A program made the translations under genes and the position numbers. Of a DNA stretch of 64,000 bases, positions 14,613 through 19,831 are shown piece by piece. The stretch is from NCBI GenBank assembly GCA_016235555.1, contig JACRKC010000112.1:1-64000 (forward strand), read 5' to 3'. The notes beneath the pieces are model-generated. The model was not told where the DNA came from. It saw only the letters and a list, made by a program, of their open reading frames with translations, and ran no database searches. Numbering within the stretch: the stretch's first letter is position 1; each line of letters opens with the position of its first letter. Source of the stretch: Verrucomicrobiota bacterium. GTDB taxonomy: Bacteria; Verrucomicrobiota; Verrucomicrobiia; Opitutales; Opitutaceae.

Positions 14613-15224
14613 TCAGAAGCGCGAGTAGAACTCGACGATGAGCTGCTCGTTGATGTCCTGCGTCATCTCCTCGCGCGTGGGGAGGCGGACGACGGTGGCT
14701 TTGAAGTTCTCGGCGTCGAGCGCGAGCCAGCCGGGGACGTTGCGGATGCGGTTCTCCTCGAGGTTGCGCGTGGCAATCTGGCGGGAGGCGGGCGTGTTCT
14801 TGACCTCGATGACCTCGCCGGGCCGCACGTTGTAGCTGGCGATGTCGACCTTGTGGCCGTTGACGCGGATGTGGCCGTGGTTGACGAGCTGGCGGGCGGC
14901 GGCGCGGCTCTTGGCGAGGCCGAGCAGGTAGACCGTGCTGTCGAGGCGGGTCTCGAGGAGCTGGAGGAAGCGTTCGCCGGTGACGCCGCGCTCCTTTTTG
15001 GCGATCTCGAACACGCGGCGGAACTGGCGCTCAAGCAGGCCGTAAACGTAGCGGAGCTTCTGCTTCTCGTTGAGGCCGGTGGCGTATTCGGAAAGCTTGC
15101 GGCGGAGTTTGGGGCCGTGCTGGCCGGGCGGATAGCCGCGGCGTTCGAGGGCCTTGCCGCTGCCCAGCAGGTGCTGGCCGAAGCGGCGGCTGATGCGGGT
15201 GGTGGGGCCGGTATAACGAGCCAT
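14613..15224 (-). CDS. rpsD: 30S ribosomal protein uS4
   Basis: Primary 16S rRNA-binding protein of 203 residues, normal length, with an S4 RNA-binding domain around LDSTVYLLGLAKSRAAARQL. The conserved C-terminus is LIVEFYSRF. The N-terminal zinc cysteines seen in some uS4 forms are absent, as in the C-minus type. It lies in the alpha operon, 115 bp downstream of rpsK; that gap holds a CTGA-unit inverted repeat. Confidence 0.98.
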   Translation of the reverse strand: MARYTGPTTRISRRFGQHLLGSGKALERRGYPPGQHGPKLRRKLSEYATGLNEKQKLRYVYGLLERQFRRVFEIAKKERGVTGERFLQLLETRLDSTVYLLGLAKSRAAARQLVNHGHIRVNGHKVDIASYNVRPGEVIEVKNTPASRQIATRNLEENRIRNVPGWLALDAENFKATVVRLPTREEMTQDINEQLIVEFYSRF

Positions 15225-15235
15225 GGTGAAGAAAG

Positions 15236-15332
15236 GGCTGAAAAACTGAAGGTCTGAAAGGCTGAGTTGGGTGGAGCGGCTGAGGTTGAAAAACTGCGGG
15301 TTTCAGCCCTTCAGTCTTTCAGCTTTTCAGCC
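15236..15332. repeat. Inverted repeat of CTGAA-type octamers
   Basis: Arms 15236-15266 and 15302-15332 match at about 26 of 31 positions as reverse complements. Each arm is a tandem of 8-nt units starting CTGA (CTGAAAAA, CTGAAGGT, CTGAAAGG). It occupies the gap between rpsK and rpsD. Confidence 0.85.
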
Positions 15333-15339
15333 TCTTGGG

Positions 15340-16020
15340 TTAGACGCGGCGGCGTTTGCGGGGGCGGCAGCCGTTGTGCGGGATCGGCGTGACGTCGACG
15401 ATCGAGGTGATTTCAAGACCGATGGCTTGAAGCGCGCGGATCGCGGAGTCGCGGCCGAGGCCGGGGCCGGAGACGCGGATCTGAATATCCTTGAGGCCAT
15501 GCGACATCGCATTGCGGGCGGCGTCCTGCGCGACGACCTGCGCGGCGTAGGCCGTGGATTTGCGGGAGCCGCGGAAGTTGCACTTGCCGGCGGAGGACCA
15601 CGCGATCACCTGCCCCTTATGGTCGGTGATGGAGACGATCGTGTTGTTGAAGGAGGCGAGGACGTTGGCGACGCCGGAAGTGACGTGCTTGGAGCCCTTG
15701 GCCTTGCGGATCTTGATCTCGCCGATCTCCTCTTTCAGGAGCTCTTCGGCGGTGGGCTGGCGGGCGACGCCGTGCACCATCTCGACGGGCTTGGCGGGAG
15801 CAGCGGGTGCGCCCTCGGCCGGAGCGGCGCCGGCCGCAGGAGCCGCGGCGGGGGCGGCGCCTTCAGCAGCGGGCTTCGCGGCCTTGTCGGCCTTCGGGGC
15901 CTTGGCTTTCTTCTCGGCCCGTTCGGCAGGCTCAGGGCGGGCGGGGGCGGCAGCGGGCGCGCCTTCAGCGGCGGGCTTCGCGGGTTTTTCCTTCTTCGGA
16001 GCGGACTTTTCTTCGGACAT
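15340..16020 (-). CDS. rpsK: 30S ribosomal protein uS11 with a long N-terminal extension
   Basis: uS11 forms part of the platform of the small subunit at the mRNA exit. The conserved core starts around residue 103 ([18 protein letters not shown]) and ends with [12 protein letters not shown]. The preceding 100 or so residues are an Ala/Pro/Lys-rich low-complexity tail; usual uS11 length is about 130 residues, against 226 here. The ATG at 16020 lies 12 bp after rpsM and no internal start is as well placed, so the tail is probably translated. It contains a 21-nt repeat (15918-15938) also present twice in the M48 peptidase gene. Confidence 0.95.
15918..15938 (-). repeat. 21-nt in-frame repeat coding RPEPAER (copy in rpsK)
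   Basis: The minus strand reads GCCCTGAGCCTGCCGAACGG plus G, identical to 53440-53460 and one mismatch from 53698-53718. All three copies are read in the same frame (PE-P/L-AER). Confidence 0.8.
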
Positions 16021-16032
16021 GTTCGTGAAAGG

Positions 16033-16422
16033 TTAGGCGGAAGCGGCTTCCTTGGCTTTGGTGACGCCGACGGTCTTGCGCGGACCTTTGCGCGTGCGGG
16101 CGTTGGTGGAGGTGCGCTGGCCGCGGACGGGGAGACCGCGACGATGGCGGACGCCGCGGTAGCAATTGATCGCCTGGAGGCGTTTCAGGTTGCCGGCGAT
16201 TTCGCGGCGGAGGTCACCCTCAAGCACCCACTTGTGCTCGGTGATGATGTGGAGAATTTTGTTGAGCTGCTCCTCGGTGAGGTCCTGCGCCCGCATGGCG
16301 GGATCGAGGCCGGCTTCTTTGACGAGCAGGTCGGCGCGGGTGGCACCGATGCCGTTGATGTAACGGAGGGAGAACGCGACTTTCTTCTTCGCGGGGATTT
16401 CGACACCGAGGAGACGAGGCAT
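16033..16422 (-). CDS. rpsM: 30S ribosomal protein uS13
   Basis: Head protein of the small subunit that contacts the P-site tRNA and the B1 bridge. At 129 residues with motif [17 protein letters not shown] and a basic C-terminal tail, it is canonical. It is the first alpha-operon gene, 99 bp after map. The bL36 (rpmJ) and IF-1 (infA) genes that commonly sit between map and rpsM are absent from this gap. Confidence 0.98.
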
Positions 16423-16521
16423 GTTGGATTTGGTTGAGAGTTAGGTTTGAGATTGGATCCTTCGCTTGCGCTCAGGACTCGGCGCCATCGAGGCGCCTCG
16501 GTTGAGAGAGTGATAAAAATT

Positions 16522-17316
16522 TCAGACGGAAACTTGAGCGGGGACCGTGCGCGGGACCGTGAGGATTTCGGGGCCGCGGTCGGTGGTGAGGACGGTGTGC
16601 TCGTAGTGTGCGGAGGGCAGACCATCGGCGGCGACGACCGTCCATCCATCGGACAGCGTTTTCGTCTTGTAGGCGCCCAGGTTGACCATCGGTTCGATCG
16701 CGAGGGTCATGCCGGGTTTGATTTTGTCGCCCGTGCCGCGCTTGCCGAAGTTCGGGATTTCGGGCGGCTCATGCATCGAAACGCCGACGCCGTGGCCGAC
16801 CATGTCGCGCACGACACTGAAGCCGTTGGCCTCGACGAAGGTCTGGATGGCTGCGGAGATGTCGCCGATCCGGTGGCCGATCTGCGCCTGCTTGATCCCG
16901 ATATCGAGGGCCTCGCGGGTGACGCGGAGGAGTTTTTCGACCGCGGGCGAAACCGGGAGAACCGGCACCGTGAAGGCGTTGTCGCCAATGTAGCCCTCGT
17001 GCCAGACCACGATGTCGAGCGAGACGATGTCGCCTTCGCGGAGGACGCGACGGAAGGACGGGATGCCATGCACCACTTCGTCGTTCACCGAGATGCAGGT
17101 GTGCGCCGGGTAGCGGCGCGAACCATGCTGGTAGCCGTAACAGGCGCTGCGGGCTCCGAGGCGGGCGATCCAATCGCGGCCCGCTTCTTCCAAGTCTTGC
17201 GTGGTGACGCCGGGCCGCACCAAGGGCTTGAGCTGGTCAAGCACCATGGCGGCGACGGCACACGCCTCGCGCATTTTGGCGATCCCATTGCGGTCTTTGA
17301 TCGGAATCGAACTCAT
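16522..17316 (-). CDS. map: Methionine aminopeptidase, type I
   Basis: Removes the initiator Met from nascent proteins using a dinuclear metal site. It has 264 residues and shows all metal ligands: the two Asp in SLDIVVWHEGYIGDNAF, the His in VGHGVG, the Glu in IEPMVN and the Glu in HYEHTV; the substrate-side His is in HTCISVNDEVVHG. The ATG at 17316 overlaps the TGA of the adenylate-kinase-like gene upstream (ATGA), which suggests translational coupling. The secY-(adk)-map order is the normal bacterial arrangement. Confidence 0.97.
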   Translation of the reverse strand: MSSIPIKDRNGIAKMREACAVAAMVLDQLKPLVRPGVTTQDLEEAGRDWIARLGARSACYGYQHGSRRYPAHTCISVNDEVVHGIPSFRRVLREGDIVSLDIVVWHEGYIGDNAFTVPVLPVSPAVEKLLRVTREALDIGIKQAQIGHRIGDISAAIQTFVEANGFSVVRDMVGHGVGVSMHEPPEIPNFGKRGTGDKIKPGMTLAIEPMVNLGAYKTKTLSDGWTVVAADGLPSAHYEHTVLTTDRGPEILTVPRTVPAQVSV

Positions 17317-17741
17317 GCGGCGAGTGCACCGGCCTCCATCAGGAGGCCAAGGGTGCGATAGTGCGAGACGACAGACTCGTCGGAGCCGGGGCCGGCGATG
17401 ACGGCGGTGAGCGCCTCGTCGCGAGCTTCGAGCCATTCGTCGAGCACCAGAGCTTGGAGCAGCGTAGCCGGGAACTCCGTGAGGAGAAATCCCGCATCGG
17501 GTTTGCGCGCGAAGAACCAGCGGCGCATCAGCGCGAGCCGGTTGGCTTCCTCCGCCGTGGCCGAAGCCGGGCGGCGCGAAATCTCCGGACCTTTCAGGGT
17601 CCGAGGAGAGACGTGCTCAAGATTCAAAGAACGACCCCGGTCCATCAGCTTTTCAGAGTGAAAATCAAGCGAACCGAGGAGTAGTAACTTGCTCCGGCCG
17701 GGTGGGCCGGAACGTGCAAAGAGGTCGGAGGTTGAACCCAT
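17313..17741 (-). CDS. Degenerate adenylate-kinase-like protein
   Basis: A 142-residue protein in the slot normally held by adk (secY-adk-map). Adk-like pattern remains: SKLLLLGSLDFHSEKL aligns by eye with the P-loop start, LNLEHVSPRTLKG with the region after it, and GFLLTEFPATLLQALVLDEWL with the Adk signature GFxLDGFPRTxxQAxxLDxxL. The P-loop lacks GxxGxGK, DGFPR has become TEFPA, and the LID and C-terminal part are missing, so AMP/ATP transfer is not expected. It keeps tight spacing (18 bp after secY, ATGA overlap with map) and an open frame, which argues for an expressed protein. Assignment is by eye and moderately certain. Confidence 0.6.
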   Translation of the reverse strand: MGSTSDLFARSGPPGRSKLLLLGSLDFHSEKLMDRGRSLNLEHVSPRTLKGPEISRRPASATAEEANRLALMRRWFFARKPDAGFLLTEFPATLLQALVLDEWLEARDEALTAVIAGPGSDESVVSHYRTLGLLMEAGALAA

Positions 17742-17759
17742 CGCGACCGGAGTAAAGAA

Positions 17760-19265
17760 CTATTTCAGAAACGCCTTGTAGGCCCAGATGGCGGTGCCCA
17801 AGAGGAGCAGGCCGAGCATCGGGAGGGCGATCTTCATGACCGCTTCCTGCGGCAGGGCCTCACCCGTCATGGCTTGCTGCGGGTTGGCGCTGCGGGCGCG
17901 GATGCGACCCTTCTTGAGGAAGCCGTCGTAGTGGCGTTGGAGCAGGAAGGTCTCGACCTGGCGCATCGTGTCGAGGATGACGCCGACGGTGATGAGCATG
18001 CCCGTGCCACCGAAGAAGTAGGCGATACGCGCCGGCACGCTGAGTTCGAAGAGCAGCACGTCGGGCATGACCGCGATCACGGTGAGGAACACCGCGCCCG
18101 CGAGGGTCAGGCGGGTCATGATGAAATCGAGGAACTGCGCGGTGGGCTCGCCCGGGCGGACGCCGGGGATGTAACCGCCGTATTTCTTCAGATCGTCGGC
18201 GATCTGGATGGGTTTGAACATGACGGACACCCAGAAATAGCTGAAGAACAGGATGAGCAACGTGTAGCCGGCGTAGTAGGTCCAGTGACCGCGCAGGAGG
18301 TTCTGCGAGATTTCGGTCAGGAACTTCAGATTATATTTCGCCCCGATCAGGGAGAAAATCTGCTGGGGGAAGAGCAGGATCGCACTCGCAAAGATCACGG
18401 GCATGACGCCGGAGTAGTTGACCTTGAGCGGGAGAAACGAGCTCTGGCCGCCCATGACCTTGTTGCCGACGACGCGCTTGGCGTATTGGACCGGGATCTT
18501 CCGCTGCCCCTGCACCACCGCAATGATGCCCATCGTGACGACGGTGAAGAGCGCGATCATGATCACGGCCTGCGGGAGACCGAGGCTCGCACCCGTGCCG
18601 ATCGGCTTGACGAACAGCCGGTAGGTCGCGACGGCCGCGCCGGGAATGTCCTGCAGGATGCCGACGGTGATGAGGAGCGAGGTGCCGTTGCCGATGCCGC
18701 GCTGCGTGATCTGCTCGCCGAGCCACATGAGGAGCATCGTGCCCGCGGTCATGAAGATCACGGAGGTGATGAGGAAGCTCCACTTGTTGATGATCACGAT
18801 CTGGCCGTAGGTGCCGATGTCGTAGCCTTGGAAGAGCCGGTCGGGATTCTCGAGCGCACCGAGGAGGAGCGTGCCTTGGATCAAGCAGATGAGCACCGTG
18901 GCGTAGCGGGTGTATTGCGTGAGCTTCTGGCGGCCGACGTCGCCTTCCTGCTGGAGGCGGCTGAGGGCCGGCACGACAGCCGTCATCAACTGGAAGATGA
19001 TCGAGGCGCTGATGTAGGGCATGATGCCCAGCGCGCAGATCGCGCCCTTGGTGAGCGCGCCGCCCGTGAACATGTTGTAGAGCCCGATGAGCGCGCTGCC
19101 GCCACCCGCCGTGGAGTCGGCGAAGAACTTCTGCAGCGGGAGCGGATCGATGCCCGGGAGCGGAATGTGTGCACCCACGCGCGACACGAAGAGCAGCGCG
19201 AGCGTGTAGAAGATGCGCGAGCGAAGCTCGGGAATCTTCAGGGAGTTGGTGAAGGCGGAAAACAC
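17760..19265 (-). CDS. secY: Protein translocase subunit SecY
   Basis: Channel subunit of the Sec translocon in the cytoplasmic membrane (501 residues, about ten transmembrane helices). Typical segments include ALGIMPYISASIIFQLM and the cytosolic-loop region IPVQYAKRVVGNKVMGGQ. It is slightly longer than many SecY proteins. Its partner SecE is encoded in the same cluster (44234-44437). It lies 122 bp after rplO; that gap contains an inverted repeat of GATNNNN heptamers. Confidence 0.98.
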   Translation of the reverse strand: MFSAFTNSLKIPELRSRIFYTLALLFVSRVGAHIPLPGIDPLPLQKFFADSTAGGGSALIGLYNMFTGGALTKGAICALGIMPYISASIIFQLMTAVVPALSRLQQEGDVGRQKLTQYTRYATVLICLIQGTLLLGALENPDRLFQGYDIGTYGQIVIINKWSFLITSVIFMTAGTMLLMWLGEQITQRGIGNGTSLLITVGILQDIPGAAVATYRLFVKPIGTGASLGLPQAVIMIALFTVVTMGIIAVVQGQRKIPVQYAKRVVGNKVMGGQSSFLPLKVNYSGVMPVIFASAILLFPQQIFSLIGAKYNLKFLTEISQNLLRGHWTYYAGYTLLILFFSYFWVSVMFKPIQIADDLKKYGGYIPGVRPGEPTAQFLDFIMTRLTLAGAVFLTVIAVMPDVLLFELSVPARIAYFFGGTGMLITVGVILDTMRQVETFLLQRHYDGFLKKGRIRARSANPQQAMTGEALPQEAVMKIALPMLGLLLLGTAIWAYKAFLK

Positions 19266-19280
19266 GGGGAGGAAATTTTT

Positions 19281-19365
19281 GATTTACGATCTATGATTGG
19301 TGATCTGGCCGCGGCCGATTGAAGCGCCGGACGGTGGCGCAGGCTTCAATCATAGATCAAAAATC
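19281..19365. repeat. Inverted repeat of GATNNNN heptamers (rplO-secY gap)
   Basis: Arms 19281-19299 and 19347-19365 match at 17 of 19 positions as reverse complements. The arms and their outer flanks are heptamers beginning GAT (GATTTAC, GATCTAT, GATTGGT, GATCTGG). Confidence 0.8.
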
Positions 19366-19387
19366 ATGATTCAAAACACCGGCGGCG

Positions 19388-19831
19388 TCAGCCGACGATG
19401 GCCTGGCCACCGGCTTTTTCGATCTTGGCCTTGGCCGACTCGGAGAACTTCGCAGCGGTGACCTTGAGGGCGCGGCCGATTTCGCCGTCACCGAGCACCT
19501 TGACCTTCTCACCGGAGCGGACGAGGCCGCGGGCGGCGAGCACCTCCGCGTTGACTTCGGTGATCGCGGCGTCGAGGCCCGTGAGGGCGCCGACATTCAC
19601 CACGGCGAACTCGATGCGGTAATTGTAGTTATTGAAGCCGCGGTGCGGGAGTTTGCGGTAAAGGGGCATCTGGCCGCCTTCGAAGCCGGGGCGGATGCTG
19701 CCGCCGCTGCGCGCGGTCTGGCCTTTGCCGCCCTTGCCGCTGGTCTTGCCGTGGCCGCCGCCTTCGCCGCAGCCAACGCGCTTTTTCCGGTGCACGGCAC
19801 CTTTAACGTTCTTGAGTTCGTGAAGTTTCAT
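19388..19831 (-). CDS. rplO: 50S ribosomal protein uL15
   Basis: Late-assembly large-subunit protein (147 residues). The ATG at 19831 gives the canonical N-terminus MKLHELKNVKGAVHRKKR, followed by the Gly-rich TSGKGGKGQ region. Upstream in-frame starts add non-homologous sequence. The rpmD gene (uL30), usually between rpsE and rplO, is absent: the 142-bp gap has no matching frame. Confidence 0.97.
   Translation of the reverse strand: MKLHELKNVKGAVHRKKRVGCGEGGGHGKTSGKGGKGQTARSGGSIRPGFEGGQMPLYRKLPHRGFNNYNYRIEFAVVNVGALTGLDAAITEVNAEVLAARGLVRSGEKVKVLGDGEIGRALKVTAAKFSESAKAKIEKAGGQAIVG

Follow-up and report, generated by a model that had tools for sequence, protein, structure and literature searches.

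A dead adenylate kinase gene between secY and map of Opitutaceae whose mRNA probably carries a structured boxA element

Several described systems come close to the locus reported here. Adenylate kinase (PF00406, TIGR01351) shares with the protein that we call pseudo-Adk the fold, the gene slot and, in early-branch copies, the alignment, but pseudo-Adk is devoid of the P-loop, has nearly always lost the DGFPR motif, and has a deleted or reduced LID domain. The boxA of rRNA (rrn) operons, at which the Nus-factor complex (NusA, NusB, NusE, which is S10, NusG, and SuhB) acts, is represented in 16S-23S spacers of the family by a 10-mer identical to that in the pseudo-adk mRNA. The latter copy, however, sits inside a reading frame of a ribosomal protein operon, and whereas in the family genome G002 the rrn boxA is not followed by anything similar to the junction described below, the boxA in pseudo-adk lies in a predicted four-way junction in 92 of 98 copies. 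A study on γ-proteobacteria gives the boxA consensus GYTCTTTAANA and describes regulation of suhB by boxA and a putative boxA near rpsJ, sites being sought within 50 bp of the start codon (PMC5725501). Like these sites, the boxA reported here appears to be used outside rRNA for ribosome-tied genes, but it is located about 300 nt 5′ of map, inside a dead gene. Finally, the ribosomal protein leader RNAs of Rfam are structured cis-acting RNAs in ribosomal protein operons, as our element probably is, but they are untranslated leaders, whereas the element is embedded in a frame and matched no Rfam entry at E ≤ 5. We recognized no paper describing such an element in the literature searched.

A remnant of adk between secY and map

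The window, meaning the whole stretch of 64,000 nt that was analyzed (assembly GCA_016235555.1, contig JACRKC010000112.1, positions 1 to 64,000), stems from a Verrucomicrobiota bacterium of the family Opitutaceae. A preliminary description, made from the letters of the sequence, had placed a 142-residue Adk-like gene in the secY-map slot and regarded it as catalytically dead but tightly coupled to map. The coordinates given for the gene were right; the open reading frame is on the minus strand, and the plus-strand translation of 17313-17741 contains stops. The features of the locus are as follows.

17741..17313, minus strand: pseudo-adk open reading frame, 142 aa plus stop, ATG start, by sequence a dead descendant of the spc-operon adk
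19265..17760, minus strand: secY, upstream neighbor (translation named by eye, homologues found)
16522..17316, minus strand: map, downstream neighbor, translationally overlapped (translation named by eye, homologues found)
17313..17316, minus strand: ATGA, in which the stop of pseudo-adk overlaps the start of map, read from the sequence
17752..17759, minus strand: upstream element TTCTTTAC, ~10 nt 5′ of the pseudo-adk start codon, weakly boxA-like

The gene order 3′ of pseudo-adk is map, rpsM, rpsK, rpsD, rpoA, and rplQ (translations named by eye). The coupling to map described before is present in the window as the ATGA overlap and is common in the family: among 98 distinct pseudo-adk copies (109 copies minus 11 identical ones) a stop-start overlap with map was found in 87 (ATGA in 80, TGATG or TAATG in 7 more), and 11 had other arrangements. 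The hexamer CTTTAC is located close to the pseudo-adk start in 90 of the 98 copies. Its interpretation as a sigma-70 -10 box was rejected, with no promoter-like match in 16300-18300. TTCTTTAC varies less than the start codon itself, which, with starts as picked by scripts, is ATG in 56, GTG in 30, and TTG in 11 copies and missing in one. In a copy from G033 (L031), an assembly with 7% contamination, the aligned start position holds CAT and there is no usable start codon.

The relationship to adenylate kinase was examined with profiles. The 142-aa protein reached 13.7 bits with the Pfam ADK profile, under the cut-off of 26.8, and its matches to NCBIfam adk models were weak (best E 5.7e-4). A 234-aa relative, L033, was aligned to the adk model NF001380 over nearly the full length with 92.6 bits (model cut-off 251), L021 scored 56 bits with NF001381, under the cut-off of that model, and 28 of the 30 members of A1 matched PF00406 at E ≤ 1. 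An AlphaFold2 model of pseudo-Adk, based on 72 sequences, predicted a compact Adk-like fold with a mean pLDDT of 80 and a pTM of 0.74. When this model was compared with the PDB by Foldseek, all 50 matches listed were adenylate kinases or engineered or ancestral Adks (best E 4.9e-5, TM by query 0.42-0.65), and an unrelated fold was not seen.

The loss of the catalytic motifs that had been noted in the window extends through the family. The P-loop GxxGxGKG was present in none of the 98 copies. The DGFPR position mostly reads T-D/E/G-F-P-A; the motif is lost in nearly all copies and absent from the 20 commonest forms, and F-P-R occurs only in a few early-branch copies. The LID domain is missing from the crown copies, whereas L033 and L034 have Cys-containing remnants in its place and L033 retains Cys pairs. 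We also analyzed 46 Adk loci from relatives and from the class, with neighbors tested in flanks of up to 1.5 kb. Twelve of them lay between secY and map, and one more had map as a neighbor. All 13 slot adks belong to other orders of the class and encode GxxxxGKGT and DG[FY]PRT, indicating that a normal adk formerly occupied the slot. The pseudo-Adks formed a single clade (100/100) in a 39-row tree, with long branches and without a resolved sister among the slot Adks. A recent decay of the slot adk was rejected, since the P-loop is missing from all 98 distinct family copies; intact slot adks occurred only in other orders. Taken by their sequences, the copies identify pseudo-adk as an in-situ remnant of the spc-operon adk that has lost its catalytic residues and was retained family-wide.

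A protein search of 57 genomes, that of the window included, gave pseudo-Adk matches in 32 at E ≤ 0.01. Within the family of the window 31 of 37 genomes had a match, and at this threshold it was absent in G008, G011, G012, G014, G015, and G019; in the 20 other genomes of the order there was one weak match, in G051 (E 0.001). Wherever secY and map were found adjoining in family genomes, pseudo-adk lay between them, while map next to secY was not found in G008, G012, and G019. A scan of species genomes yielded 158 relatives, the best 80 of which were examined for their titles. These read Opitutaceae, Opitutae, Opitutia, Opitutus, Verrucomicrobia or similar, with one 'bacterium', and by the titles of the named relatives the pseudo-adk family is that of the Opitutaceae. 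In G015, listed as 100% complete, neither secY nor map nor the RNA element described below was matched.

The assumption that a true adk is present elsewhere was confirmed in the window's own genome, which encodes a 389-aa tandem Adk and a 404-aa protein. The former (G000:C124:13335-14390, L001) is the full-scoring adk of this genome and consists of two fused Adk domains, with ADK matches of 159 and 129 bits. The latter (G000:C91:62856-63131, L003) has an N-terminal ADK match with the P-loop GAPGAGKGT, DGFPRT, and a long C-terminal extension. Counted by hand as an ADK match from profile position 2-3 in a frame of 388 aa or more, the long form occurred among the matches listed in at least 32 of the 37 family genomes and at least 13 of the 20 other genomes of the order, and may represent the housekeeping Adk of the order. 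Among the matches listed, G009, G010, G014, G016, and G033 had a full ADK match in another frame. Presumably, Adk catalysis is provided by these P-loop proteins, whose P-loops were read in the window's own genome only. The second domain of the tandem Adk has an altered P-loop, GYPGSGRGSQ, with Lys changed to Arg, and may itself be dead; frames matched twice by ADK occur sporadically across the family.

Constraint on the nucleotides of the pseudo-adk frame

Divergence at 4-fold degenerate sites of conserved codons was compared between pseudo-adk, secY, and map, using one set of genome pairs for all three. For 24 pairs with a secY identity of at least 0.97 it was 0.111 in pseudo-adk, 0.345 in secY, and 0.257 in map, and for 44 pairs at 0.94-0.97 the values were 0.214, 0.477, and 0.447. 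The same order was found in 118 pairs (0.278, 0.530, and 0.529) and 495 pairs (0.300, 0.524, and 0.504), and 2179 more distant pairs showed 0.33-0.35 in pseudo-adk versus about 0.53 in the flanks. In bins of 8 codons (669 pairs), values of 0.00-0.39 were obtained for pseudo-adk codons 1-96, with the lowest at codons 89-96 (0.00) and 33-40 (0.08); from codon 97 on they were 0.35-0.48, and most secY and map bins were at about 0.5. Codon diversity at conserved residues was 0.20 versus 0.46 in the null for codons 1-97 (40 columns) and 0.39 versus 0.49 for codons 98-142 (14 columns), with 26 of 40 and 4 of 14 conserved degenerate codons, respectively, within the bottom 10% of the null from secY and map. 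The codons TCT of S38, GTC of V44, ATT of I54, AAA of K80, and GCG of A83 and the sequence CCG GCT ACG at codons 91-93 were the same in 80 of 80 genomes.

An overlapping gene in another frame was rejected, the best alternative frame being open in 45 of 80 genomes and the annotated one stop-free over codons 1-100 in all 80; the remaining copies had been picked as open frames. As the annotated frame alone is open and synonymous change is low, the region must be coding and something else at once. Constraint at the RNA level is directly observed in these comparisons, and overall the constraint on pseudo-adk seems to be strongest on the nucleotides rather than on the protein.

The same data bear on the possibility that pseudo-Adk is a functional pseudoenzyme, that is, a protein with a new role as a binding partner or regulator, for which the RNA constraint would be secondary. 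The uninterrupted frame and the predicted Adk-like fold fit this idea, as do the residues R73, W75, G84, F85, P91, and D101, which are invariant even in the early branches, and the dN/dS of codons 98-142, which are mostly outside the RNA element (0.29 for 68 pairs, 0.33 for 284 pairs). In secY and map, however, dN/dS was 0.03-0.10, corresponding to an amino acid constraint in codons 98-142 that is 3-10 times weaker than in these neighbors, and of the 29 residues invariant in A3, 24 fall at codons 23-97, within the nucleotide-constrained part. Together with the decayed copy of G251 presented below, this makes a new role of the protein an unlikely reason for the retention of the gene.

Predicted structure of the mRNA

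RNAalifold with RIBOSUM scoring, applied to a codon-based alignment of 92 crown sequences from which the six early-branch copies were left out, predicted a four-way junction on the coding strand. Its parts and the boxA have the following positions in the window.

17636..17678, minus strand: H0, predicted 5′ hairpin (RNAalifold; arm-swap test modest)
17629..17633, minus strand: P1 5′ strand, predicted to pair with 17434-17438; overlaps boxA; 98.3% of cells paired in A2 and 98.5% of crown cells
17623..17632, minus strand: boxA GTTCTTTGAA, identical to the rrn boxA of the family, in the first invariant block
17611..17618, minus strand: P2 5′ strand GAGCACGU, closing the predicted four-way junction; 8 pairs invariant in 84/84
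17582..17609, minus strand: P3 hairpin, predicted; 98.8% of cells in 5 scored pairs
17575..17581, minus strand: P4 5′ strand UUUCGCG, predicted to pair with 17502-17509; inner loop of variable length; 97.8% paired
17502..17509, minus strand: P4 3′ strand CGCGCAAA, predicted to pair with 17575-17581
17467..17495, minus strand: P5 hairpin with apical stem P6, predicted; P5 100% paired, P6 86.3% overall
17457..17465, minus strand: P2 3′ strand ACGCUGCUC, with one bulged C
17434..17438, minus strand: P1 3′ strand, predicted to pair with 17629-17633

The structure was evaluated on A2, a MAFFT alignment of 84 of the 92 crown sequences, under 93% identity. Of 2856 cells in its 34 pairs, 97.5% can pair, compared to 33-50% with the 3′ partners slid. 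Doubly changed cells numbered 18, compared to 3.1 ± 1.6 in shuffles, none of 500 of which reached this number, and 2-14 in the slid controls. Compensatory pairs were found at one pair of P3 (UA 72, UG 9, CG 3) and one of P6 (UA 70, CG 8, UG 6). Since P2 is invariant and P5 nearly so, neither of these stems proves or disproves pairing, and most of the pairs behind the junction do not vary. The P3-region hairpin formed in 16 of 16 hand-picked sequences folded alone, and single folds contained P2, the P3 hairpin, and a P4-like stem in the window, G164, and G251, and a P5-like hairpin in the window and G251.

Other tests gave weaker signals. Default RNAalifold on A2 returned a different, weak fold of 29 pairs, none of them doubly changed or covarying, and a first covariation scan found 8 stems with a covarying pair, compared to 14, 6, and 10 in secY controls and 3 and 1 in map. 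Arm-swap energies showed a modest gain (P3 -14.4 versus -12.9 swapped, P5 -4.95 versus -3.44), the fraction of swaps beaten being 0.64 for P3, 0.785 for P5, and 0.705 for one secY control. The codon-permutation z of pseudo-adk was -1.78 with its own gene and -1.02 pooled with map, and the controls were 0.11 and -0.36 for secY and -1.08 and -0.78 for map (35-36 sequences each). With regard to the strand, G·U wobbles in the structure (50 cells) outnumber A·C (17), which points to folding of the coding (sense) strand and disfavors an antisense RNA. The RNAalifold energy on the 92-sequence alignment was -101.2 for antisense and -97.5 for sense, while in another fold comparison antisense (-17.7) was less stable than sense (-23.8). 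Folding of the conserved blocks of 92 of the 98 copies into a four-way junction of P2 to P5 is supported by these models but not proven, and over the first two thirds of the pseudo-adk frame the mRNA is probably a conserved structured RNA. In the six early-branch copies all 5 pairs of P1 are formable, but only 1-6 of 8 in P2, 0-3 of 5 in P3, and 0-3 of 7 in P4.

A known RNA family was rejected: an Rfam 15 cmscan of 15200-19500 gave no leader match in pseudo-adk at E ≤ 5, and its six matches were all far below the gathering scores and outside the gene. A covariance model built from A2 was then used, with Infernal's stricter filters in both searches. Among the 57 relatives 24 scored 179 bits or more and the six early-branch genomes 30-69 bits, which could be due to shared coding sequence. 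Among 288 genomes of the phylum there were 22 strong matches, all in the family of the window, and G251 of the same family at 62 bits; the family genomes G015 and G267 had none, and nothing else exceeded 25 bits. In both sets each crown genome had one strong match, at one place. The element thus represents an RNA family without a match in Rfam 15 and, in the genomes searched, without a strong match outside one bacterial family.

The copy of G251, known from one assembly, provides a natural experiment. Its pseudo-adk has the RRWFFA stretch deleted, and the part after SPATLL is unlike that of the family, whereas boxA and the blocks GAGCACGTCTCTC, GAGATTTCGCG, CGCGCAAACCTGATGCGGG, and CCCGGCTACGCTGCTCCA are intact. 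P3 carries a 6-nt insertion predicted to form a longer hairpin in an overall similar fold, and the frame is open and ends in the ATGA overlap with map. A decayed protein with retained RNA blocks and overlap is expected if RNA and coupling outweigh the protein. The kept frame and overlap agree with the suggestion of the preliminary description that the gene might be only a translation coupler, which carries ribosomes from secY to map while nothing else matters, and so do the stop-start overlaps across the family. Coupling alone, however, leaves the near-invariant synonymous sites unexplained, and in the sister families represented by G043, G045, G050, and G049 map follows ~12-215 nt after secY with no gene between. 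We consider this explanation highly improbable. Of the earlier interpretation as a whole, the dead Adk relative stands, but the nucleotide-level constraint and the probable RNA had been missed.

boxA in the element and its possible role

In the element, GTTCTTTG is present in 96 of the 98 copies and GTTCTTTA in the remaining two; the core GTTCTTT, and likewise GTTCTTT[GA], occurs in all 98. The boxA word itself is GTTCTTTGAA in 72 copies, GTTCTTTGCA in 22 (21 of the 92 crown copies, one base off the rrn form), and GTTCTTTGAT and GTTCTTTGAC in one copy each. The comparison with rrn boxA rests on three other family genomes, with 23S 5′-end and 16S-end words serving as landmarks. In the rrn spacer GTTCTTTGAA lies 100 nt (G002) and 88 nt (G009) 5′ of the 23S 5′-end word, and G034 has two GTTCTTTGAA sites just 5′ of a masked block, after sequence that by eye resembles the G002 leader. 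In the latter, GCTCTTTGAA is located about 120 nt upstream of 16S; this leader (L186) has two boxA-like sites, GTTCTTTGAG and GCTCTTTGAA. The other GTTCTTTGAA sites fetched had no rrn landmarks, except G002:C9 (L214) with a 23S-like word on the strand opposite to GTTCTTTGAA. In eight genomes GTTCTTTGAA occurred 41 times and the reversed control 36 times, and at that density we calculate a chance of about 1e-4 for its occurrence in a given 300-nt sense stretch. An Rfam search found no 16S in the window's own genome, and a search by the 3′-end word found 16S in 2 of 38 genomes, so that variant boxAs could not be paired with their own rrn boxA.

Compared with the stretch of L186 that includes the rrn leader, 16S, spacer, and 23S start, boxA was the longest sense word shared with the element. 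Mimicry of 16S was rejected, as beyond boxA there were only 9-mers on the sense strand and two 11-mers on the opposite strand. No boxA-like site was present in any of the 13 intact slot adks from other orders, in the secY-map gaps retrieved from six further genomes of the order, or in the stretches after secY of three family genomes without pseudo-adk. Since the early branches keep the boxA core and P1 while P2 to P4 are largely not formable, boxA is probably an older part of the element than the junction. P1 could hide boxA; both P1 strands are also conserved as coding sequence.

With a probability of roughly 0.55, we propose that the adk frame has been preserved as a translated vehicle for a boxA RNA element that controls map and the genes 3′ of it in cis. 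As the boxA of the element is identical to rrn boxA, we infer recruitment of NusB-S10; NusB is encoded in the window's own genome. Bound NusB-S10 would assemble the Nus-factor complex on RNA polymerase, and the Nus-bound polymerase would transcribe map-rpsM-rpsK-rpsD-rpoA-rplQ, by which the expression of map to rplQ, including the α-operon genes, would be tied to free S10 and rRNA transcription. P1, pairing with part of boxA, and the junction might gate or add to this control, and the frame would be kept open and handed to map by the stop-start overlap. Judged by the sequence, Nus control could act either by anti-termination or by repression. Counting against the proposal, ribosomes would compete with NusB-S10 for a boxA inside a translated frame.

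The structure could instead be an autoregulatory RNA of ribosomal proteins, in which the junction binds a downstream product such as S4 and represses map to rplQ, with boxA incidental or secondary. Such a function would suit the location within the spc/α ribosomal protein operon, a conserved junction with invariant unpaired stretches, and the G·U bias favoring the coding strand. Yet the boxA core with P1 is the sole part kept in all 98 copies, P2 to P4 can hardly form in the six early-branch copies, the longest word in common with the rrn stretch of the family is precisely boxA, and known Rfam leaders gave no match. We therefore regard autoregulation as rather doubtful. Returning to the boxA carrier, a wider formulation is possible, though tentative: a new class of regulatory RNA, consisting of an rrn-type boxA and a four-way junction, would have evolved in a dying essential gene and brought ribosomal proteins of the α operon and the α subunit of RNA polymerase under the Nus-factor control of rRNA, all coordinated by one transcript signal.

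If the Nus reading is true, the element would connect rRNA transcription directly, at the genetic level, with the synthesis of ribosomal proteins and RNA polymerase in a little-studied phylum. The locus also suggests that the main reason for retaining a pseudoenzyme gene can be its RNA, and it serves as a warning that a conserved pseudoenzyme need not be a protein with a new role. A further observation concerns the S11-like protein (rpsK by eye; window 15340-16020, minus strand), which has an N-terminal extension of ~95 residues rich in Ala, Pro, and Lys.
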